From the IMG/VR virus record IMGVR_UViG_3300025646_000156, positions 1-36,133 of that record: a DNA stretch of 36,133 bases; one strand, written 5' to 3'. This stretch comes from a virus. Of this stretch, positions 3,773-25,604 are shown one piece after another. Each line of letters starts with the position of its first letter. The stretch's first letter is position 1. The translations under genes and the position numbers were made by a program. The notes under the pieces were generated by a model. The model saw only the letters and a program-made list of their open reading frames with translations, was not told where the DNA came from and searched no databases.

Positions 3773-4132
3773 ATGGGAAAATCACAGAGAGAAAAAGGGA
3801 AGAGGGGTGAGCGCATGTTTCGTGATGTCCTGCGTGCAGCCGGCTTCGATCCTGAGCACACCTACCGAACCCAGCAATACTCTGGTAAGGCAGCTGATGG
3901 CACGTCCAGCGATGTGACGTGTCGCCAGCTGCCATCACTTTACTGGGAGGTGAAGAACGTGGAGAGGCTGAACCTGTGGTCAGCATTCGCTCAAGCATCA
4001 AGCGACTGCCCTGATGGGCGCATGCCTATCGTGGCTCACACACGTAACCACCACCCGTTTCTAGTAACATTAAAAGCTGAGGACTTCTTGGAGATAGTCC
4101 GACGAAGCGACATCATTGAAGAGGTGGAATAA
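3773..4132 (+). CDS. Holliday-junction-resolvase-like PD-(D/E)XK nuclease (119 aa)
   Basis: The residue layout fits the small Hjc/resolvase-like phage nucleases: RGERMFRDVL (Glu in the first helix), GTSSDVTC (Asp), LYWEVKNVERLNLW (E-x-K) and AQASSDC followed by PIVAHTRN. These cut branched DNA during recombination or replication, or before packaging. The length is typical. The gene begins at ATG 3773, two bases after the preceding stop, and its TAA overlaps the initiator ATG (TAATG at 4130-4134). The exact substrate cannot be told from sequence. Confidence 0.7.
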   Translation: MGKSQREKGKRGERMFRDVLRAAGFDPEHTYRTQQYSGKAADGTSSDVTCRQLPSLYWEVKNVERLNLWSAFAQASSDCPDGRMPIVAHTRNHHPFLVTLKAEDFLEIVRRSDIIEEVE

Positions 4133-4731
4133 TGGCAATCAACACGCAACTGCTGGAAGGCATCGCCAGCTCGCCCGACCTGACACTTGGGGACAAGTTG
4201 ATCATCTCGGTATTCAAAGCCAACCCTCGTTGGTCAAAAAGAAACATTTCAAAGGTGCTCGGAACCAGTGAGAGAACGGTTCATCGGGCTATCGAGAAGT
4301 CAAAAAAGTATGACACCGGCGGCGTAGAGTGTGACGCCCGTGTCATACAGTATGACACCGGCGGCGCACAGTATGACACCCGTGTCACACAGTATGACAC
4401 CGGTGGCGTAGAGTATGACACCGGTGGCGCACGTAGTAGTAGTAGTAGTAGTAAAGAAGAAGAGAAGCCGAAGAGGAAGACGCCAACGAAGGAGGAGGTG
4501 ACGAAGTTCGCCTACCAGATGAGGAGGGGTGACCTCGCTGAAGAGTTCTTCGATCACTACGAGGAGAACGACTGGATACACAACGACACTCCTCTTATTC
4601 ACTGGAGAGCTATGTTCAGGGGCTGGGCTCGCAGGACGCCTATCGCTACCGAACCTGTCACCAATGGTTTTTCTTCAAAGGGTCGTCTCACTGCTGAGGA
4701 GGCGAGGTTCCAACAGGATAACAGTTACTAA
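4132..4731 (+). CDS. Replication initiator (lambda O-like organisation) with embedded iterons
   Basis: 199 aa. Residues about 20-58 form a helix-turn-helix (DKLIISVFKANPRWSKRNIS, then GTSERTVHRAIEKSK). Residues 60-101 are six tandem 7-residue repeats of the YDTGGxx type, followed by a serine run, a charged linker, and a C-terminal domain (about 122-170) containing FFDHYEENDW and LIHWRAMFRGWARR. That last pattern is common in phage replisome organisers that contact helicases. The repeat is the protein image of six 21-bp DNA iterons. The gene directly precedes a DnaB-type helicase, as O precedes P in lambda or gene 18 precedes 12 in P22. The best reading is an initiator that binds iterons within its own gene. 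No sequence match to lambda O itself is claimed. Confidence 0.7.
   Translation: MAINTQLLEGIASSPDLTLGDKLIISVFKANPRWSKRNISKVLGTSERTVHRAIEKSKKYDTGGVECDARVIQYDTGGAQYDTRVTQYDTGGVEYDTGGARSSSSSSKEEEKPKRKTPTKEEVTKFAYQMRRGDLAEEFFDHYEENDWIHNDTPLIHWRAMFRGWARRTPIATEPVTNGFSSKGRLTAEEARFQQDNSY
4308..4433 (+). repeat. ori: Six 21-bp iterons, candidate replication origin
   Basis: Direct copies of GTATGACACC begin at 4308, 4329 (degenerate, GTGTGACGCC), 4350, 4371, 4392 and 4413, exactly 21 bp apart, which is about two helical turns. Units 2 and 4 end in the inverted half (GTGTCATAC, GTGTCACAC), so they form near-perfect palindromes with the next unit at 4340-4358 and 4382-4400. A GTA x7 run (4433-4453) and a purine-rich strand (4453-4478 region) follow on the right. 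Regular iterons inside an initiator gene, followed by a strand-biased tract, are the layout of the lambdoid origin. Confidence 0.75.
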
Positions 4732-4761: not shown

Positions 4762-6135
4762 ATGAGCACATACAACATACCACACGATCAGGCAGCGGAG
4801 CTTGCTGCCATAGGAGCTGCGGTGCAGGGGAAATACAACGACCTCGCTGCATTCGGGATTAACTCAGACCACTTCCATCACTTTAAATGCAGGATAATGT
4901 GGGAGGAGATGGTCGCAATGGACCGAGAAGGGGTGCCTATCGGCGTTGAAACCCTCTGCCACAGGTTTGTGGGTGCAGATAAAATAAACAGCCCCACAAT
5001 AGTCGATGTGAACCACGCAGTCGATGCCTGTCCTACCACTATAAGTTGGCTCTATTGGGCTGAGATGGTGGAGAGCAAACGGAAAGCTAGAGTAATACAG
5101 GAAGCAGGGCTCAAGCTCGCACAGACGAGCGGTGAGTGCGACAATCTCGATGATCTCGTCGCCACTGCTGAAACAGTTATCTACAGTTTGAATCAATCTA
5201 TCACCACTGCAACAGGTGACAGGAAAGAATCCTTCCAGCGAGTCATCGGGATGCTGGAGGAAGCACACAGCGGTAAGAAGGTGGGGATACCAACAGGGTT
5301 CCCATCCATTGACCGTATCCTCGGAGGGATGCGTGGCGGACAGCTACTCGTCTTAGCTGCGCGTCCCTCCGTAGGTAAGTCGGCTATCGCCGGCAACATC
5401 GCAGAAAACCTCGTGCTACAGGATGTGCCGGTAGGCTTCTTCAGTTACGAAATGACACAGGATGAGCTTAACATGCGCATGCTTAGCAGCGTGTCAGACA
5501 CGAACCTTACTGGTGACATCCTGAACCAGAATGCTGACGAGCAGGGCAGGCTGGCAACAATGGCAAAGGCATCGTCTAGGGTTGTCGATCTGTGCAAAGC
5601 CCCTATCCATATAATCGACAACCCATCACTGACAGTAAACCAGATCAGAGCACACGCTCGTAGGCTGGTTAAGGATTACGGAGTGAAGCTGCTAATCATT
5701 GATTACATCCAGCTAATCAAGCCCGGTGTAGATGAGGGCAGGAAGGACAGGCACCTCCAGATCGCAGCTATTACTGGAGGGCTGAAGCAGCTGGCAATGG
5801 AGCTGAACATACCGATCTTAGGGCTGGCGCAGCTGAGCCGAGAGGCTGAGAAGTTCGCCGGCAAACGACCAACGATGAGCATGCTGAGGGAATCAGGCAG
5901 CATTGAGCAGGATGCTGATGTGGTGATGTTCCTTTACTGCGCTGACACATCAATGTTTGAAGGGCCGAACACACTGCTCAACGTGGCAGTAGGGAAGAAC
6001 AGGTCGGGCAGGTTAGGCGACACTGAGCTAGTGCTGGTCCGGAATAAGACACGATTTGAGGAGGCGACTGAACCTCACCACGAGGAGTGGTTAAACAGAA
6101 GAAGAGCAGAACAAGTAGAGCGAGAAGGCAGGTAG
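4762..6135 (+). CDS. dnaB: Replicative DNA helicase, DnaB type
   Basis: 457 aa, near the usual DnaB length. The N-terminal helical domain (about 1-150) is followed by a RecA-type ATPase: GIPTGFPSIDRILGGMRGGQ, Walker A ARPSVGKS (200-207), FSYEM with catalytic Glu 230, and Walker B LLIIDYIQL (about 310-318), then QLSREAEK and DADVVMFLYC. It unwinds DNA 5' to 3' as a hexamer at the fork. It lies 30 bp after the initiator, which probably recruits it to the iterons. As no primase or polymerase gene is visible in the window, host DnaG and Pol III are presumably used. Confidence 0.95.
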   Translation: MSTYNIPHDQAAELAAIGAAVQGKYNDLAAFGINSDHFHHFKCRIMWEEMVAMDREGVPIGVETLCHRFVGADKINSPTIVDVNHAVDACPTTISWLYWAEMVESKRKARVIQEAGLKLAQTSGECDNLDDLVATAETVIYSLNQSITTATGDRKESFQRVIGMLEEAHSGKKVGIPTGFPSIDRILGGMRGGQLLVLAARPSVGKSAIAGNIAENLVLQDVPVGFFSYEMTQDELNMRMLSSVSDTNLTGDILNQNADEQGRLATMAKASSRVVDLCKAPIHIIDNPSLTVNQIRAHARRLVKDYGVKLLIIDYIQLIKPGVDEGRKDRHLQIAAITGGLKQLAMELNIPILGLAQLSREAEKFAGKRPTMSMLRESGSIEQDADVVMFLYCADTSMFEGPNTLLNVAVGKNRSGRLGDTELVLVRNKTRFEEATEPHHEEWLNRRRAEQVEREGR

Positions 6136-8545: not shown

Positions 8546-8979
8546 TGGGAAGACTCAGGATCAAGCTAGGAGAAGGGGAGCTACTGCCGCATCTGCTTGA
8601 TCCGCGCAAACCGCAGGGGCTATGGAGCCACGGGTATCTGGCCGCTGCAATTATAGCTAGAGCCATTGAAGACTACATAGATTTTTACCAGCTGGGATTC
8701 ATTAACGACGACCATACGATGCACACAGAGAACGTGCGCAGAGAGGTTAACCACAGGTTGCTCACGAAGAAGCAGCCTACATCACAGCTACCGAGGCACG
8801 CTGACGTGAGGGACGTTGTTACATGCATATCATTTCTCTTCGACGAAGGCGTGCTTGAAAGCTTTATCCCGAATGACTGGGTGCTAACAGCACCACGGCT
8901 GCGAGACATTGCTGACACATTTGCAAAGCGAGGTCAGCGCATCAGCAGCCTGTTCAGCTTTGATCAGAAGATAAGATGA
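8545..8979 (+). CDS. Hypothetical phage protein (144 aa)
   Basis: Not recognised. It begins MGRLRIKLGEGELLPHLLDP and is mostly helical. A segment ADVRDVVTCISFLFDEGVLES near residues 84-106 looks like a small winged-helix-like or helical bundle, without certainty. It overlaps the previous gene by one base and the following glycosyltransferase by four (ATGA), so it belongs to the same transcript. A partner role with its upstream neighbour is possible because the two are coupled. Confidence 0.55.
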   Translation: MGRLRIKLGEGELLPHLLDPRKPQGLWSHGYLAAAIIARAIEDYIDFYQLGFINDDHTMHTENVRREVNHRLLTKKQPTSQLPRHADVRDVVTCISFLFDEGVLESFIPNDWVLTAPRLRDIADTFAKRGQRISSLFSFDQKIR

Positions 8980-9725
8980 AAATACAAACCATAACGCAAA
9001 TCCACACCAGCTACGACAGGTTGGGAGTTTACGAGCGAGTGTCTCTGGAACGCTGGCGAGCATTGAATCCAGACATTAAGTATCAGTTCATCACTGACGC
9101 AGACATTGATGATTTCATTGCGCAGGAGTGGCCTAACAAGCAAGCCACCTATCAAAGCATGATGCCTATATGCAGAGCTGGCATACAGAGGGCAGCAGCT
9201 GTGCTGAGGTGGGGCGGTCTTTACACTGACTGCGGATCTTATCCCGTCAGGCCAATCGAAGATTTCAGACCGAGCGGCACATGGAATAGTGACATAGCTA
9301 TGTTTAAGCTCAGAGATAGAGAAGGGTCTCCGCCACTCATTACGGACTGCATGTTCGCAGCCGAAAAGGGGCACCCTGTTTTAAGGGCTTTGATTGACGA
9401 GATATTCAACAGAACAGAGAGCGATGCATATAAAGCAGCTTGCGTTGAGAGCCACTACTTCAACTACAAGAGGTGGGTGTTCGACACTGCGAGTGTCCAC
9501 GTCTACAGCGACATCGCCAACAGCCACGGCGTAACAGGTATTGACGGCTTAGTTGACGCTGACGGAGCCGACCTGCGTGAAAGGCTGGACCGAGTGAATA
9601 TATTCCGGTTCTCAACTGAAAGCTGGGTCAGGAGTGGTGACAGCAGGTGGGACAGGGATAAGGGGGATAGAATGAAGGATGAGATGAACACTCTGGTCGG
9701 CATTAAAGCGATAGCGGGCATATGA
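8976..9725 (+). CDS. GT32-type glycosyltransferase with altered DxD motif
   Basis: 249 aa. The N-terminus (ITQIHTSY, then SLERWRALNPDIKYQFI) and the core (RAGIQRAAAVLRWGGLYTDCG) match the Gly_transf_sug/GT32 family, which transfers sugars from nucleotide sugars through a metal-binding DxD. Here the motif reads D85-C-G87, whereas the paralogue at 24867-25604 has D85-C-D87 at the same residue numbers. Metal binding may be weakened or another residue may substitute. It starts a sugar-related cassette and overlaps its neighbours by ATGA on both sides. Acceptor and donor are unknown; the fucose pathway gene downstream hints at a deoxyhexose-containing glycan. Confidence 0.75.
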   Translation: MKIQTITQIHTSYDRLGVYERVSLERWRALNPDIKYQFITDADIDDFIAQEWPNKQATYQSMMPICRAGIQRAAAVLRWGGLYTDCGSYPVRPIEDFRPSGTWNSDIAMFKLRDREGSPPLITDCMFAAEKGHPVLRALIDEIFNRTESDAYKAACVESHYFNYKRWVFDTASVHVYSDIANSHGVTGIDGLVDADGADLRERLDRVNIFRFSTESWVRSGDSRWDRDKGDRMKDEMNTLVGIKAIAGI

Positions 9726-10222
9726 ACAAAGAGGACAGAAGAAAAGAGGCAGCGAGTGCTGAGGATAAGGTGATTGATGCAATCAAGAGAAGCTTGCCCA
9801 ACAAGCTCGTTGTCAGAACTCACGAAAGATACAGTGAGGTAGATGGCTTCACTGTCAACAGAGACACTCACGCAGTTGAGTCTGTGTTTGAGGTTAAGTG
9901 CAGAAACCTCAGCATGCCCGACTTGATGGGTAAGTTCAGATGCAGCATCACCATTGCCAGTAACAAGCTCAACTCGATGCAGAAGCTGAGCGAGCACATG
10001 AAGATTCCATCCATACTTTACACATATACAATGATGGACGGATGTTTGTTTGCTCTACAGATAACCGACAAGAACGGGGCGTGGACATGCCGTCGGGTTG
10101 AGTCAGCTGAGAAGGAGGTTCCGGCCACTGTTGGAGGCGAACCGGTGATGAGGAACATGTCCGACATCAGTATGGCTGGATGCACGATAGTATCAGTGAA
10201 TGGATGGACTGGAGTCATATGA
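9722..10222 (+). CDS. PD-(D/E)XK-like putative nuclease (166 aa)
   Basis: An N-terminal helix with Glu (AASAEDKVIDAIKR) is followed by SEVDGFTVNRDTHAVESVFEVKCRN, giving Asp then E-x-K as in restriction-endonuclease-fold proteins, and by a helix and strand typical of the fold (KLNSMQKLSEHM, SILYTYTM). This supports the fold; activity is inferred. It overlaps by four bases both the glycosyltransferase before it and the methyltransferase after it, an odd place for a nuclease. It could also be a non-catalytic relative. Confidence 0.5.
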   Translation: MNKEDRRKEAASAEDKVIDAIKRSLPNKLVVRTHERYSEVDGFTVNRDTHAVESVFEVKCRNLSMPDLMGKFRCSITIASNKLNSMQKLSEHMKIPSILYTYTMMDGCLFALQITDKNGAWTCRRVESAEKEVPATVGGEPVMRNMSDISMAGCTIVSVNGWTGVI

Positions 10223-11079
10223 AGGATATTAAAACAGAAGTAGCACTGTGCAACAGCTACATAAAGAGCGTTTCTTTTGATGTCCAAAGCAGCAACAACT
10301 TCAGGCAGGTATTAAGCCACCCGAACCCTCTCGCCAGATATGGTAGGCAAATGTTTTCGCAAGCCTTTGAGGACGGTATCACTTTGGAGATAATGAGCCG
10401 AATCAAACCTGAACTCAGGCACGAATTCTTCTTAGAGATCGGCAGTGGTGACGGCACTCAGAACAACACTCTCGCACTAGCTGCACTCGGATGGGATGGC
10501 GTGTGGGTTGACTGCATGCCACTGCACTACCAGTTACCAAATAACAGCAGGGTGTCTTTCTATCAGCGAAAGGTGAACACTGAGACAGCCTGTGATATTG
10601 CATTGAACGCTTTGGAGAAGGCTTCAAAAAAGAACTACGATGCAGTCAGTATAGACGTAGATGGTATCGACTATTACATCACCGAAGGACTGCTTAAATC
10701 AGGGATCAGGCCAAACCTGTGGATCATTGAATACAATGCTCTGTTTATCCCACCAGTTAAGTTCGTGATAGACTACGATCCAAATAATACGTGGGACAGA
10801 TCCAGCCATTATGGAGCATCGCTTCAATCACTCGTAAACTTAATGCATAGATATGGCTACTGCCTCGTGTGCTGCACGCCAGCTACGGGGACCAATGCTT
10901 TCTTTGTTCCAAGAGGAGTCATGTATGCCTTCACCGATGTTCCCGACAGCATCGAAGACATCTATGTAGGGCCACACTACAGGCTGGACATCAACTTCGG
11001 GCACCCTATCGGGGTTAAACTGATCCAACACCTACTAGACAAAACCAAAACCTACCACACACAAACAGGACAAGCATAA
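10219..11079 (+). CDS. FkbM-like SAM-dependent methyltransferase
   Basis: The start is ATG 10219-10221, in an ATGA overlap with the preceding gene; a longer frame exists but is less likely. 286 aa. The SAM-binding loop FLEIGSGDGT (71-80) is followed by GWDGVWVD, and YDAVSIDVDGIDYYI with IIEYNALF follows the pattern of FkbM-type enzymes, which methylate sugar or related hydroxyl groups. Its position between a glycosyltransferase and GDP-fucose synthase suggests sugar methylation of a surface glycan. The exact acceptor cannot be inferred. Confidence 0.65.
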   Translation: MKDIKTEVALCNSYIKSVSFDVQSSNNFRQVLSHPNPLARYGRQMFSQAFEDGITLEIMSRIKPELRHEFFLEIGSGDGTQNNTLALAALGWDGVWVDCMPLHYQLPNNSRVSFYQRKVNTETACDIALNALEKASKKNYDAVSIDVDGIDYYITEGLLKSGIRPNLWIIEYNALFIPPVKFVIDYDPNNTWDRSSHYGASLQSLVNLMHRYGYCLVCCTPATGTNAFFVPRGVMYAFTDVPDSIEDIYVGPHYRLDINFGHPIGVKLIQHLLDKTKTYHTQTGQA

Positions 11080-12038
11080 TGAAAAGAGTATTAATAGCAG
11101 GACACACTGGAATGACTGGACGCGCAGTGATGCGCCGACTAAGCAATCAAGAGGCTGGATTCATTCCGGTTGATGCAAGCCTTAACGGAAATCGAATTGA
11201 CTTCCGTGACCCTATCATGACGCAGCAGCTGATAGGAGATAAGCAGCCTGATGCGATTGTTATCTGTGCCGGCAGGGTAGGTGGCATCGCTGACAATATC
11301 AGCAGACCAGCCGACTACATACACGACAACGCACTCATGCAGTGCAACATCATTAAGGCAGCTCACGCACACAACGTGCCGAAGCTGATCACGCTTGGGA
11401 GCAGCTGCATTTACCCGAGAGGCTGCGACCAGCCTATGAAGGAGGAACACTTTCTCACCGGCACATTTGAGCCTACCAACCAGTCATATGCTGTGGCTAA
11501 AGCAGTTGGGATTGAGATGTGCCGAGCTTACCACAAGCAATACTCCCGTAACTACTACTCTATAATGCCACCTAACCTGTACGGTCCTCACGACAACTTC
11601 AGGCCGCATCAATCTCATGTAGTGGCAGCACTGCTGCGCAAAGCGAAAGAGGTGGCGGATGGTGGTCAGCTGGAAGTCTGGGGAACAGGTCGTCCACTAA
11701 GAGAGTTTATGCACGTTGATGATCTGGCCTCAGCTGTTGAGTTCTGCTTGATGAATGTGAATGCGTGGGACTGTGATCCTTACAGCTTCATTATTAACGC
11801 CGGCACCAACTCGTCCCACACCATCAAGCAGCTTGCTGAGGCTGTCGGGGAAGTCAGCGACACGTTCGGCTCACTAAGGTTTGATCAATCTAAACCAGAT
11901 GGAATGCCGATGAAGCAGATGGACTCATCACGGATAAACGATCTCGGGTGGAGCCACAGCATCAACCTGCTCGACGGGCTTGATGATGCGTGGAGATGGA
12001 TGAATGAGAACTGGAGATCTGATGTTATCAGAAAGTAA
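11079..12038 (+). CDS. fcl: GDP-L-fucose synthase
   Basis: 319 aa, the usual length. The enzyme converts GDP-4-keto-6-deoxy-mannose to GDP-L-fucose with NADPH. The motifs present are GHTGMTG (8-14, Rossmann loop), AGRVGGIADN, LGSSCIYP (Ser/Cys 108-110), SYAVAK (Y137, K141), PPNLYGPHDNF and the His after FRPHQSH. All catalytic positions of the family are present. No GDP-mannose dehydratase (gmd) is visible in the window, so the substrate probably comes from the host. The gene ends exactly where the convergent minus-strand gene ends, with no gap. Confidence 0.92.
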   Translation: MKRVLIAGHTGMTGRAVMRRLSNQEAGFIPVDASLNGNRIDFRDPIMTQQLIGDKQPDAIVICAGRVGGIADNISRPADYIHDNALMQCNIIKAAHAHNVPKLITLGSSCIYPRGCDQPMKEEHFLTGTFEPTNQSYAVAKAVGIEMCRAYHKQYSRNYYSIMPPNLYGPHDNFRPHQSHVVAALLRKAKEVADGGQLEVWGTGRPLREFMHVDDLASAVEFCLMNVNAWDCDPYSFIINAGTNSSHTIKQLAEAVGEVSDTFGSLRFDQSKPDGMPMKQMDSSRINDLGWSHSINLLDGLDDAWRWMNENWRSDVIRK

Positions 12039-12653
12039 TCAAAAGCCTTTATAGATCACCTGATACCCATTGCTAAAGAGGGCGGGGTTGTGAATCGAGC
12101 CCATAAACTCATCTATTAACCTGCCCTTTCCTTCTAAAGCCCCATCCTTATTCCTGCGGGTGTCGTCTACAAGTATCATCGTGTTCTCGTTGATCAAGTG
12201 ACGAGCAGCTACCAGCTCCTTCAAATGATGCTCCGATGAAGGGGTGTCATTATCAAACACAACATCGAAACTATCCAGATAGAGAAGAGATGCAGTTCCT
12301 TTAAGCAGATTTAAGGCAGCAATGGAATCTGAGCACAACTGCGAAACACGAGGGCATCGGTTTCTGGTAACGGTGGATGCACCGTGCCCTATGTCAATAG
12401 AGACACACCTCCCGCTGTGGTGCTTCAGAAACTCGTTGAACATCCACGTACTAGCCCCATCCCCGAAGTTCTCACCTGCCTCACTGTCATCACGCATACT
12501 GCCTGTCTCAACAATCAAAGGGCAGCAACACTTACTCAAATGGTTGAAGGCTATATCCCAGCTATCAGCCCTCATATGCAGCTTAGGGCGAACCTCAGCC
12601 CAAGCGTCTTCCCAACTGTTCCAAGTCTTATCAAAGAAGCTCATACTGATCAA
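12039..12653 (-). CDS. Class I SAM-dependent methyltransferase-like protein
   Basis: 204 aa from a TTG (12651-12653) that overlaps the stop of the preceding gene as TTGA. An ATG at 12642-12644 is an alternative start, three residues shorter; neither has a clear ribosome binding site. VETGSMRDDSEAGENFGDGA (about 48-67) resembles the glycine-rich SAM loop, SIDI (85-88) supplies the acidic residue, and later strands LLYLDSFD and ILVDD fit the Rossmann core. It is the last gene of the leftward late operon. It could modify sugars or small molecules; the acceptor is unknown. Confidence 0.6.
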   Translation of the reverse strand: MISMSFFDKTWNSWEDAWAEVRPKLHMRADSWDIAFNHLSKCCCPLIVETGSMRDDSEAGENFGDGASTWMFNEFLKHHSGRCVSIDIGHGASTVTRNRCPRVSQLCSDSIAALNLLKGTASLLYLDSFDVVFDNDTPSSEHHLKELVAARHLINENTMILVDDTRRNKDGALEGKGRLIDEFMGSIHNPALFSNGYQVIYKGF

Positions 12654-19113: not shown

Positions 19114-20289
19114 CTAACGAGCACCTATGCCCAGCCCTCGCAGTTCACCCATCACTCTATCAGAGAAAGAGTTGCCACCCGGCTTTGACCTGCTGGACGC
19201 CCCGTTGCTTGTTGTTCCTGCTGCGCTGGGCTCAGCCCCTTTCAGTTGCTCAAGCTCCTGAGCCAGCCTGCGATTGTGCTCTACCAATGCTGCATTCTGC
19301 TCAACTAATGCTCCACCGCTTGCTGCCCACAGGGCTGCTGTTGCTGCGTCCTCAAATGTGTTCTGTTCCATTAGAATCTTCTTAGCTAAGTTGACTCGCT
19401 CACGGACACCAGTGTTCCACTCCTCGTCACCTTCACGCAGCTGGTAAATGCCAATCTGATCCTGTGCCTGCTTGAGCATTGAGTTGAACGATTTCTCCAG
19501 TGCTTGATTTCTTTCAGCAGTCTTCTTTTCAGTGATCAGATTCTCTTCCTGTTGGAGCTTTTCGTAGCTTTCACGCGCAGCACTAATGCTTTGGTCACGC
19601 TCGTAGCTAATCTCATCAATTCGACTCACAATGTTCTGAAGGTAAGCTTGCCGAGATGCCGGCAGGTCGCCAGTCAGTTCGTCGATAGCGTTAGCCCTTT
19701 CATCACCGACAGGCATGCGCAAAATCTTTGCAAGCTTTTCACGCTGTTCAGCGGGGACATAAGCCTTTGCTCTGTCTATCTGCGTTTCAATAGGTTTGAC
19801 ATACTGCTCCTTAAACTTGGGGTGACGTTCCAGATTGGTAACAGTAAGCGTCTCGCTCATCTGATCATACTCAGACTTGAGCTTATCGTATTCACTCTTC
19901 ACACCCTCCAGTCCTTCAAAGTCGCTCAGCTTTGACATCAGCTCAGCGACCTGCTGCTTAGCTGCGTCACGCTCCTGCTTGATCAGCTTGAAATCTGCGG
20001 CACTGCGAGAGACTGGCTTTTCGTTAGCCTGCGCTGAGTCAGTGCTTTTGGAATCATCTAAACTAATGTCATCGTTGCCAGCAGGTTCTGCGCTTTGCTT
20101 ACTGGTGTCAGCAGGTTCCACTGCCTTTGGTGAAGGTGCTTCAGTCCCCTTCATCGCATTGCGGAAAGCATCTGCCATTGAGGAGATTTTCTTATTGGTG
20201 TCAGGATGAAGCCCCGGCTTACCACTGATTGCAGCTGGTTCTGCCTGCACTGGTTCGTTCACTGTTGTTGCTGTATTGTCTTCACTCAT
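19114..20289 (-). CDS. Scaffolding-like protein
   Basis: 391 aa. A disordered, acidic N-terminus rich in E/P/A/S (about 1-95) leads into long charged coiled-coil helices (about 98-160 and 230-350), and the tail is Ser/Gly-rich and basic (SRSKPGGNSFSDRVMGELRG). This is the typical make-up of phage scaffolds, whose basic C-terminus binds capsid protein. It lies between the portal region and the capsid. The stop of the small upstream gene overlaps its start by 8 bp. The assignment is by composition and position. Confidence 0.7.
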   Translation of the reverse strand: MSEDNTATTVNEPVQAEPAAISGKPGLHPDTNKKISSMADAFRNAMKGTEAPSPKAVEPADTSKQSAEPAGNDDISLDDSKSTDSAQANEKPVSRSAADFKLIKQERDAAKQQVAELMSKLSDFEGLEGVKSEYDKLKSEYDQMSETLTVTNLERHPKFKEQYVKPIETQIDRAKAYVPAEQREKLAKILRMPVGDERANAIDELTGDLPASRQAYLQNIVSRIDEISYERDQSISAARESYEKLQQEENLITEKKTAERNQALEKSFNSMLKQAQDQIGIYQLREGDEEWNTGVRERVNLAKKILMEQNTFEDAATAALWAASGGALVEQNAALVEHNRRLAQELEQLKGAEPSAAGTTSNGASSRSKPGGNSFSDRVMGELRGLGIGAR

Positions 20290-20579: not shown

Positions 20580-21245
20580 TTAAATAGGTCTGGATTCTAG
20601 TGCGAACTTTCCTCGATTAATGTTGCGTGTTGCCCCGTGGCTGAAGTGGACAAGTGGTGCTTCTTTCCACCCTTTTGTTCCATACTGCTTAACGATTGGG
20701 CATGTCGCATAAATGCCGCTATGCTTCATGTGTTGAAGTATGATCATATCACTTGTGTGCGGCGTGCTACCTTCATCCAGCCTGACGCTATTGCCATCGC
20801 ATGTGGCGAAAATCATTGCCGCCGTAGTAAATCCTGCTGCACTCCCTCCTACCACCGATGGTGTAACATTGTCTTCCGTTGAGTTTGATTCAAATATAAC
20901 CAAATCAGCTTGAGGCTGAGTAGGCGTAAACGAGTAATTTATTACATCGTAATCAGACATAAACCCGCCACCCTTAGCGGCCACAGCTAACCACCTGTGG
21001 TAGCATGCCATTTCGTAAGCAGGCATGTTGGCAGTCGGAAGCTTGCTGCATCGCTCAGTGTACATATCGTAGAGAGGGTGAAGCATTGCATCCTTTGCTG
21101 TCAGCACTTGGGGGGACCAGCCACGCTTAGACCAGCTCCTCTTCCATCCCGCCATCAGTTCGTGCTGCTTTTCAGCGTCTTCGCTCAGAACATCTCCATC
21201 ACCTTCATAAATGCCATCGTAGTATGTGTAGACTATGTTGCTCAC
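20580..21245 (-). CDS. Glycosyltransferase-like protein with SDYD motif (221 aa)
   Basis: The start is GTG 21243-21245 in a GTGA overlap with the upstream glycosyltransferase gene. The N-terminus NIVYTYYDG and the segment YHRWLAVAAKGGGFMSDYDVINYSF (97-100 SDYD) match the sugar-transfer family in which GG...DxD binds the nucleotide sugar and metal. HPLYDMYTERCSKLP and MPAYEMACYHRW resemble the helix before the motif in GT32 enzymes. It lies between portal and scaffold, a rare place for a glycosyltransferase. Donor and acceptor unknown. Confidence 0.65.
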   Translation of the reverse strand: MSNIVYTYYDGIYEGDGDVLSEDAEKQHELMAGWKRSWSKRGWSPQVLTAKDAMLHPLYDMYTERCSKLPTANMPAYEMACYHRWLAVAAKGGGFMSDYDVINYSFTPTQPQADLVIFESNSTEDNVTPSVVGGSAAGFTTAAMIFATCDGNSVRLDEGSTPHTSDMIILQHMKHSGIYATCPIVKQYGTKGWKEAPLVHFSHGATRNINRGKFALESRPI

Positions 21246-22069
21246 TTCCGCCTCCTCGCTTTGCGTTTGGCCTTACGTTTAGGCTCTGACGGTATGAGTG
21301 ATGCTGGTTCCTGTGTCTCAGGCTCATTCTCTTCAGGTTTAGGTAGCCTTTCCCTAAGCCTGTCGATCAGCGTCCCGTCTTTTGCCCGATGGAACAGAGC
21401 GGCATCGAAGTCCACTAAATCATCAACTGCTTTTTGATCAGGGAATGTTGGGTGGATGCCCCCGCTGATGACAGGTTTGTTGTTCTCATCAATTTCCCAC
21501 ACATTCATGATGAGCTTTGAGTGACGGGCATTCTGAACAACACTGCCGTAGCTGCCTGCAACGTCCCACGCCATACCATCTGGGGGAATCATCATAGCCG
21601 TGGAGTATTCGTGTAGGTTTGGCGGGTAGACTGCAACGCCATTCAGGTGCAGTGACGTTGGCGTGATCGCCCCGTGAACAATATGCCCCATAAACGGTTT
21701 CCCGCATGCCTGATAGTCAGACCATATGTCATGAGCCCATCCGCTTCGGATTGGGACAGCATCAGGTTCCATAAACAGGAACGGCTTCTTATGCTTGTTG
21801 ATAATCTCCCAGCACAAGCATTGGAAAGCATAGTTCTGAGGGTTGGGCCAGTTGGGTCTTCCTTTCCATTCGTTGTAACGGAAGTGAATGACCCCGCTGA
21901 ATGCTTTGTTGGCAACTGCGTCAATGTCAGTTACCAGCATTTCTGGCACGTCAGTGTCATACGAGAGGATCACTTCAAACGGAAGCTTTCCATCCAACTC
22001 GTATATCCACTCGATAGTCTTTAATGCGACTCTGCAATCCTTAATGCAGAAGGGAATAACGATTATCAT
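21242..22069 (-). CDS. Glycosyltransferase-like protein, GT-A fold, basic tail (275 aa)
   Basis: Begins MIIVIPFCIKDCRVALKTIEWI, a GT-A type first strand and helix. Residues 98-106 (LFMEPDAVP) hold the acidic motif in place of DxD, and HLNGVAVYPP follows a pattern I recall from glycosyltransferase-like proteins in phage genomes. The last about 13 residues (KRKAKRKARRRK) are almost entirely Lys/Arg, which could tether it to nucleic acid, capsid or membrane. It is 21 bp downstream of the portal gene on the same strand and coupled to the next glycosyltransferase by GTGA. Confidence 0.65.
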   Translation of the reverse strand: MIIVIPFCIKDCRVALKTIEWIYELDGKLPFEVILSYDTDVPEMLVTDIDAVANKAFSGVIHFRYNEWKGRPNWPNPQNYAFQCLCWEIINKHKKPFLFMEPDAVPIRSGWAHDIWSDYQACGKPFMGHIVHGAITPTSLHLNGVAVYPPNLHEYSTAMMIPPDGMAWDVAGSYGSVVQNARHSKLIMNVWEIDENNKPVISGGIHPTFPDQKAVDDLVDFDAALFHRAKDGTLIDRLRERLPKPEENEPETQEPASLIPSEPKRKAKRKARRRK

Positions 22070-24283: not shown

Positions 24284-24870
24284 AGCTTTTTCTTCCAGCA
24301 GTTGTCTGGCAACGCTTGGTTCTCTTCTTCTGAAATTGATTTCTGCAACGCATTAACCGGCATCCATATCTGAGCTGCATTGAAGCAGCCGCAGTGTCTG
24401 CACGATTTGAGCTGTGAATCCTTTGATGTCGTTTTGCTGCCAGTTACAAAGGATATAACCTTCTTAACAATGCCTTTCGTGCACCCGTTGCACCCTATTG
24501 GTTCAACATTGCTTTCGCATGTCGAGCAGACTTCAGCTCGGGATTCAGCTTCGACCTGATCAACCCTTTCGCCGGCAGCGTAAAAGAGTGTCTTCGTAAA
24601 CCTGACAGCAAGCTCAAGTGTGATTTGTTGATCCCGTTTCGGAATCTTTACATCTTTGTCTCTACAGAAGTCGGGATGCTCACTGCATACATGACTCTCA
24701 ACAATGTCGTCGATGTTGAACGGGACCGGGATGTTGTTTGCCTTTCGGTGCTCGATCACCTTATTCAGCAGGCCAGCAAATGTGCGGTCGCTCATGTGGT
24801 ACCCGGTTTCCTCCTGAGTGTAACTAAACCCGCCATGAGGGTGTGTTGTGACTGGTCTGAGTTTCTTCAC
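24280..24870 (-). CDS. Cysteine-rich putative zinc-binding protein (196 aa)
   Basis: The start is GTG 24868-24870, overlapping the preceding stop as GTGA. The C-terminal half holds CSTC (115-118), CNGC (127-130) and CRHCGC (157-162), with C62, H65 and C69 further upstream. This suggests two zinc-ribbon sites. A helix and basic segment between the clusters (GIVKKVISFVTGSK) is also seen. I recall such Cys-rich proteins beside glycosyltransferases in phages, where they have no known role. It sits between the GT32-type gene and the portal. Confidence 0.55.
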   Translation of the reverse strand: MKKLRPVTTHPHGGFSYTQEETGYHMSDRTFAGLLNKVIEHRKANNIPVPFNIDDIVESHVCSEHPDFCRDKDVKIPKRDQQITLELAVRFTKTLFYAAGERVDQVEAESRAEVCSTCESNVEPIGCNGCTKGIVKKVISFVTGSKTTSKDSQLKSCRHCGCFNAAQIWMPVNALQKSISEEENQALPDNCWKKKL

Positions 24871-25604
24871 AGCTTCCTGCCTGTTGGCCCGAACATCTCA
24901 TGCAACGCATTCAGATTGATGTTCTGCTCGTTATACATGTCCTGAGGCTTTACAGCACTCCTCCTCGGCATCCACAGGCCGGTCCCAAAGTGCATCGCTT
25001 TCATATCGCTCGGAGCATTACCATCAGCTACATCGTGATGGTGATAATGAAGTCCCGATATTGCATCCTCCATCCTGTAAGGTGATGCGCCAAAAACATC
25101 CTGACAACATAACACGCCTGTCGTGTGGAAGTGCCACGAGAGCCAGTCATCAGACTTCTGATCGCTTGGCTGTTCTAAGTCAAACGTTCTACGTAGCCCT
25201 TCAAATGCAAGCTGTTTCATAAGCTCCTGCCCCTTGTCGGACGCAAAGCAAGCGTTCATATACATATTGCGAATCGGGTGAGAGAAGAGCACCACTTCAG
25301 ATTTTTCAGGGATATACTCACTGAGAGGAACAACTGGACACAGATCACAGTCAACGTAAATGCCTCCAATGTTGAAAAGGATGGCAGCTCTTCTGATATT
25401 GCTTTGAGAACCTAATGGCAGTGATTCATAGTGCTCCTTCCATTCCGGAAATAAATCGTAAACATGCTGGTCAGCTTCATCGTGGTTTAGAAAGTAGTAA
25501 GTGTATTCCGGATTGAACCTCTGCCACCGCTCAACGCTAACCTTCTCATAAAGCGACAAAGCTTTGTAGCTCCTGTGGATTTGTATGATGTTCTTATCCT
25601 TCAT
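24867..25604 (-). CDS. GT32-type glycosyltransferase with intact DxD
   Basis: 245 aa, clearly paralogous to the 8976-9725 protein: the two align without gaps through residue 90 (IIQIHRSY..L.LYEKVSVERW / GGIYVDCD). The DxD is intact (D85, D87). Family members transfer a hexose from a nucleotide sugar. It lies directly after terL, with an ATGA overlap, and so is expressed with packaging and head genes. It could glycosylate a virion protein, or host surface glycans late in infection. Confidence 0.75.
   Translation of the reverse strand: MKDKNIIQIHRSYKALSLYEKVSVERWQRFNPEYTYYFLNHDEADQHVYDLFPEWKEHYESLPLGSQSNIRRAAILFNIGGIYVDCDLCPVVPLSEYIPEKSEVVLFSHPIRNMYMNACFASDKGQELMKQLAFEGLRRTFDLEQPSDQKSDDWLSWHFHTTGVLCCQDVFGASPYRMEDAISGLHYHHHDVADGNAPSDMKAMHFGTGLWMPRRSAVKPQDMYNEQNINLNALHEMFGPTGRKL

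Follow-up and report, generated by a model that had tools for sequence, protein, structure and literature searches.

The window analysed here, a stretch of 36,133 nucleotides making up the IMG/VR virus record IMGVR_UViG_3300025646_000156, very probably contains a theta-type replication origin at 4308-4453, inside the linker-coding part of the gene for its own initiator. As far as the sequence can tell, the best reading of the locus is a lambda-like layout, with iterons followed by a putative opening tract, on an unrelated initiator and beside the phage's own helicase (Table 1). The lambda-style origin proposed in the initial annotation is borne out as to layout: a DNA-binding domain, iterons in a coding linker, an easily opened tract, a C-domain and a gene for a replication partner. 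Computed support comes from the array itself, its conservation at the DNA level, the way it covaries with the recognition helix, the linker predicted to be disordered, the weakly paired tract and the adjacent helicase gene.

Table 1 Features of the putative origin and its surroundings (window coordinates)
Feature	Position	Strand	Details or support
PDDEXK / RusA-like resolvase gene, upstream in the same module	3773..4132	+	PHROG 244 2.6e-17
Initiator gene (199 aa); N-domain with helix-turn-helix, disordered linker encoded by the iterons, and C-domain	4132..4731	+	
N-terminal helix-turn-helix domain, residues 5-60	4144..4311	+	Pfam HTH_24 E 1e-3, under curated cut-off
Six 21-bp iterons	4308..4433	+	Starts 4308, 4329, 4350, 4371, 4392, 4413; repeat finders and half-site counts
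(TAG)6 tract, then TA; AGT-coded polySer	4434..4453	+	TAG excess over synonymous shuffles
Low-stability stretch, putative opening element: TAG tract and purine-rich AAAGAAGAAGAGAAG	4434..4475	+	
C-terminal domain, residues 116-170, motif EEFFDHYEENDW...PLIHWRAMFRGW, putative helicase/partner contact	4477..4641	+	
DnaB-type replicative helicase	4762..6135	+	Pfam DnaB_C 2.2e-72; PHROG 19 3.4e-88

TRF reported a 21-bp period with 6.0 copies (4307-4432) and a second array with a 42-bp period and 2.9 copies (4307-4426), and a repeat finder gave unit spacings of 21, 21, 21 and 21 bp. The half-site GTRTGACRC occurs nine times in the whole window, eight of these within 4308-4421 (six forward, two reverse); dinucleotide shuffles of the whole window contain 1.16 on average and never more than 4. 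By all of these measures, the 21-bp array that had been described inside the gene before dnaB is real. Some details of that description need revision. Six 21-bp units are present as claimed, but GTATGACACC is exact in five of them (4308, 4350, 4371, 4392 and 4413), while the second (4329; GTGTGACGCC) deviates by two mismatches. The iteron dyad has the form GTATGACAC-nn-GTGTCATAC; its left half is strong in 6/6 units, its right half is strong in units 2 and 4 and decayed in units 1, 3, 5 and 6. The reported alternation of palindromic units is a local detail, as every unit is a dyad. Both palindromes that had been located were found, a perfect one at 4340-4358 and one with a single mismatched pair at 4382-4400, but both straddle adjacent units; the dyad conserved in relatives lies within the unit (e.g., 4329-4348, 4371-4390). 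The encoded heptads are in frame, but only 4/6 contain the YDTGG that had been ascribed to all, the remaining two reading CDARV and YDTRV. Elsewhere in the window, a weak second 21-bp tandem repeat (19268-19312, 2.1 copies) lies in a structural-region gene and is apparently unrelated to this array.

The GTA/TAG repeat (4433-4453), the purine-rich strand and the DnaB-type gene directly downstream, all noted in the initial annotation, are likewise present. TAG occurs eight times in the linker compared to 1.45 times under synonymous shuffling, and 0/1000 shuffles reached eight. In terms of nearest-neighbour stability, the 40-bp window starting at 4435 belongs to the weakest 1.4% of the whole window and is directly adjoined by the iteron windows, which are among its most stable ∼10%. 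Of 21 tabulated sequences, 18 have a TAG-rich tract after the iterons (it is absent from L106 and L111/L112), and TAG counts exceed those of synonymous shuffles in most lineages. The in-frame codon of the tract is either AGT (Ser) or GTA (Val), depending on the lineage; L116, L124 and L129 use both phases. In L118, L126 and L128 it starts with a short dyad, ACCTAGTAGGT, that is common to lineages with different iterons.

The genes near the array encode a resolvase, an exonuclease, a single-strand-binding-like protein and the helicase. GC skew of the window tracks gene orientation, which makes it uninformative about the origin, and shows no switch at 4.3 kb. Further along, at 8976-12653, 20580-22069 and 24867-25604, ORFs that by eye resemble glycosyl-/methyltransferases and epimerases lie amid structural genes. 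The initiator protein matched no curated initiator family in Pfam and NCBIfam profile scans. Its N-domain helix-turn-helix resembles AsnC/Lrp-like proteins (Pfam, PDB fold matches), and the PDB fold search returned generic helix-turn-helix regulators only, none with E below 0.3. Among the best BFVD fold matches are proteins that bear the names replication initiator, replisome organizer and Lin1244/Lin1753-like. AlphaFold2 gave a pLDDT of 73-90 over residues 11-60 and of ∼81-87 over residues 121-170 of the C-terminal domain, which is kept in all relatives. The linker between the two folded domains is predicted to be disordered (pLDDT ∼31) exactly where the iterons are encoded. A putative recognition helix (∼residues 45-58) varies in step with the iteron sequence. 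Searched against named phages, the full-length protein gave weak C-domain matches in Vibrio phages only (E above 0.01), and the N-domain alone as query gave no credible match.

Two contigs carry the initiator gene at 96-98% identity, with one change (L001) or six changes (L002) in the array. Four of the six changes in L002 fall outside the 9-mer cores and two at the A/G-tolerant third position, so that 8/8 cores are intact; four changes are non-synonymous (R to G, T to I, Q to L, Y to C). Few as these changes are, they point to selection on the DNA. A terminase scan yielded 55 related contigs, and a helicase and initiator search of these found the gene pair in three, with different linker repeats of the same 21-bp period, GGAACnnnnGTTCC and GTATCGATATCGATAC. 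By helicase alignment we obtained ∼30 loci with an initiator-helicase pair, from which 15 representative lineages were taken. In each of the 15 the linker dyads follow a 21-bp grid, and their centres coincide with boundaries between codons. The half-sites differ between lineages (GTATGACAC, TGTTGCAC, GGAAC, GTATCGAT, GTAAAG, TGCGACAC, TGTGAACA, GTATCC, GTATCAA, GTGTC and GTGTCAAG, among others), and the linker peptides differ along with the dyad sequence.

Dyads were evaluated by a phased score; a greedy exact-arm count mixes within-unit and between-unit dyads. In most lineages the dyads were stronger than in protein-preserving synonymous shuffles (Fisher combined p ∼9e-17 for 15 non-independent lineages, whose relatedness makes the p-values overstate independence), with weak pairwise support in L118 and L125 (P 0.39 and 0.12). 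Relatives that retain the protein repeat and lose the DNA motif had been named from the outset as a refutation; the outcome was the reverse, in that the 21-bp grid, the dyad symmetry and the position are kept, and the motif letters and the peptide change. The combination of a DNA and a protein repeat, initially considered unusual, is instead the norm in this initiator gene family. Beyond the two near-identical relatives, the exact 21-bp motif pattern retrieved only unrelated repeats from viral contigs, namely isolated coincidences, AT-rich stretches and the repeat of a coil protein. Several viral contigs (L005, L008, L009 and similar loci) encode a conserved coil-like protein that contains a YDTLSGLYDTLTSNYGT repeat. 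Scans of bacterial genomes with DnaB, as single sequence or alignment, gave no relatives.

Single loci show peculiarities. At L122:1249-1420 the C-domain is accompanied by an extended array, with about five dyads of the GTATC...GGTAC type, and no helix-turn-helix is recognisable upstream; a separate ORF ends right at the array. This may be a real rearrangement or an assembly chimera. The third dyad in the L125 linker is inverted relative to the first two (GTACCAATATGGATAC vs GTATCCAAATTGGTAC). In L116 (1650-1800 and similar), L117 and L120 the frame is open far upstream of the conserved start, so that the start codon is uncertain there.

The more two lineages differ in the recognition helix, the more their iterons tend to differ (Mantel r 0.45, p 0.0002, a measure of covariation that is short of a full phylogenetic test). 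The correlation was 0.42 (p 0.0004) when partial on the C-domain and 0.37 (p 0.001) when partial on the rest of the N-domain, while C-domain distance given the helix had no residual correlation with the iterons (0.01, p 0.43). Natural swaps illustrate this: L111 and L115 share 93% of the N-domain and 38% of the C-domain, and their iterons are the same. L126 is 95-98% identical to L118 or L128 in the C-domain and 55-58% in the N-domain, and the iterons are different. Since dyads and peptides differ by lineage and lineages with similar iterons resemble each other in the recognition helix rather than in the C-domain, the array is a DNA-level feature and is most likely bound by the initiator's own N-domain.

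We infer from these features binding, dimerisation, melting, helicase recruitment and the use of the array as an origin. As 21 bp correspond to two helical turns, dimers of the N-terminal helix-turn-helix domain would occupy the six dyad iterons along a single face of the DNA helix. The nucleoprotein array may then help to melt the weak TAG/purine tract just downstream, and the C-domain, tethered via the disordered linker, could recruit the DnaB-type helicase that the phage itself encodes in the following gene. The strict 21 bp is the sole spacing near two B-DNA turns that is also a whole number of codons; as it equals seven codons, the array can grow, shrink and change its sequence in frame. 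More speculatively, the locus might represent a self-contained origin family in which recognition helix and iterons co-switch specificity within one gene on a fixed 21-bp/7-codon grid, and in which the TAG tract, in the manner of a DnaA-trio, provides the single strand on which a non-AAA+ initiator or its helicase lands, but we regard this extended version as rather unlikely.

More distant homologues are free of the 21-bp grid, with repeats of 11 or ∼22 bp. The C-terminal motif F..Y...W....P...W+A..R.W is shared by the window protein and initiators of the Vibrio phage 1.259.O and 1.167.O type, and the C-domain aligns with the 1.259.O protein (hhalign 96.4%). The Vibrio phage homologue contains four TCCGGAG repeats 11 bp apart. 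Similarly, GGTTGCC occurs four times at 11-bp intervals in the linker of the distant homologue at L161:2904-2990, with AATAG repeats after it. In L029 and L161 alike, four 11-bp copies run across all three frames and precede a TAG-containing AT-rich tract. Since such arrays run through three frames, a DNA-level array extends well beyond the window's initiator family. Linker repeats of ∼22 bp accompany the same C-domain motif at L162:2944-3075 (GGTGCC...GTCACCCC) and L164:1325-1455 (GGGTGCAAAC...GCACCC), and the linker iterons of L028 are weak. The initiator regions of Pseudomonas phage F10 and Halomonas phage YPHTV-1 showed no repeats, hence not every phage dnaB is preceded by linker iterons.

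The main rival to the origin reading is an operator array for autoregulation, in which the helix-turn-helix protein blocks transcription of its own gene and dnaB and replication starts elsewhere. The AsnC/Lrp-like resemblance of the N-domain would suit such a role, helix-turn-helix repressors typically use dyad operators, and the sites lie inside the gene to be controlled. However, three to six phased sites in coding sequence, together with a weak TAG tract and a helicase gene downstream, fit an origin better, and a repressor needs neither a conserved C-domain nor a long disordered linker. We therefore consider pure autoregulation improbable, but both roles can coexist, and binding at the origin may itself repress.

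That the heptads have a structural or binding function, with tandem duplication producing the DNA repeat as a side effect, would agree with units that are in frame and form heptads. This explanation is already strongly disfavoured and has hardly any probability left: the peptides differ in most lineages while the 21-bp dyads persist, the dyads exceed synonymous shuffles, changes in close relatives spare the DNA cores and alter the peptide, the linker is predicted to be disordered, and in distant relatives 11-bp repeats are spread over three frames. Plasmid partition sites, too, are marked by iteron arrays, but no partition ATPase was found among the genes examined near the array, making a partition or packaging (centromere/pac-like) site bound by the initiator protein extremely improbable as well.

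Under the origin reading, the peptide repeat is explained as a shadow of the DNA sites. In each lineage one short gene naturally pairs a recognition helix with its cognate dyad, so the set lends itself to reading and testing a protein-DNA specificity code, and it also serves to study how origins switch specificity. For uncharacterised phages a simple search rule for origins emerges: a helix-turn-helix gene beside dnaB whose linker holds 21-bp dyads. The occurrence of TAG tracts outside DnaA systems raises a testable question.

Among known systems, the lambda ori is made up of iterons and an AT-rich tract midway through gene O, and in Stx-phage relatives of lambda the number of iterons (four or six) varies with in-frame linker length (PMC7466680). 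The window shares with lambda the dyad iterons in mid-initiator gene and the easily melted tract that follows. In contrast, the iteron spacing of lambda is irregular (20, 24, 23) compared to the strict 21 bp, its neighbour gene encodes the loader P and not a DnaB-type helicase, and the TAG tract is a feature of the window. The initiator matched neither TIGR01610 nor Phage_rep_O, and hhalign against lambda O gave a probability of 0.2%; the same NCBIfam scan does detect O in L030.

RepA_N plasmid initiators and PLE RepA combine a helix-turn-helix N-domain, semi-palindromic iterons and a variable C-domain (PMC7145576). The window protein resembles them in all three features, and RepA_N is absent from its Pfam matches at E up to 1. 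In some plasmids the origin lies within the coding sequence. The PLE origin is non-coding, unlike the array in the window. The phage proteins of the Lin1244, DUF4373, DUF6291 and replisome-organizer families have, like the window protein, a helix-turn-helix, a linker and a W-rich C-domain, and the window protein had no Pfam match to these families. Linker iterons are common to Vibrio phage 1.259.O and the window, but they are spaced by 11 bp in 1.259.O, and the N-domains differ in details.

The DnaA-trio of bacterial oriC has consensus 3'-GAT-5' repeats, which follow a DnaA-box and a spacer and run away from the box, and as in the window TAG trinucleotides are repeated a short distance from the initiator sites in a weak stretch (PMC8287927). 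However, the polarity of the repeats relative to the sites appears opposite, the window protein is not AAA+/DnaA, and the trinucleotide phasing of the TAG tract is not kept in all lineages. No DnaA-box was seen by eye, and we take the apparent resemblance as a lead only. In P22-type gene 18/12 modules the initiator gene directly precedes the phage's own DnaB-type helicase gene and the origin lies in the initiator gene. The window shows the same initiator-helicase order.
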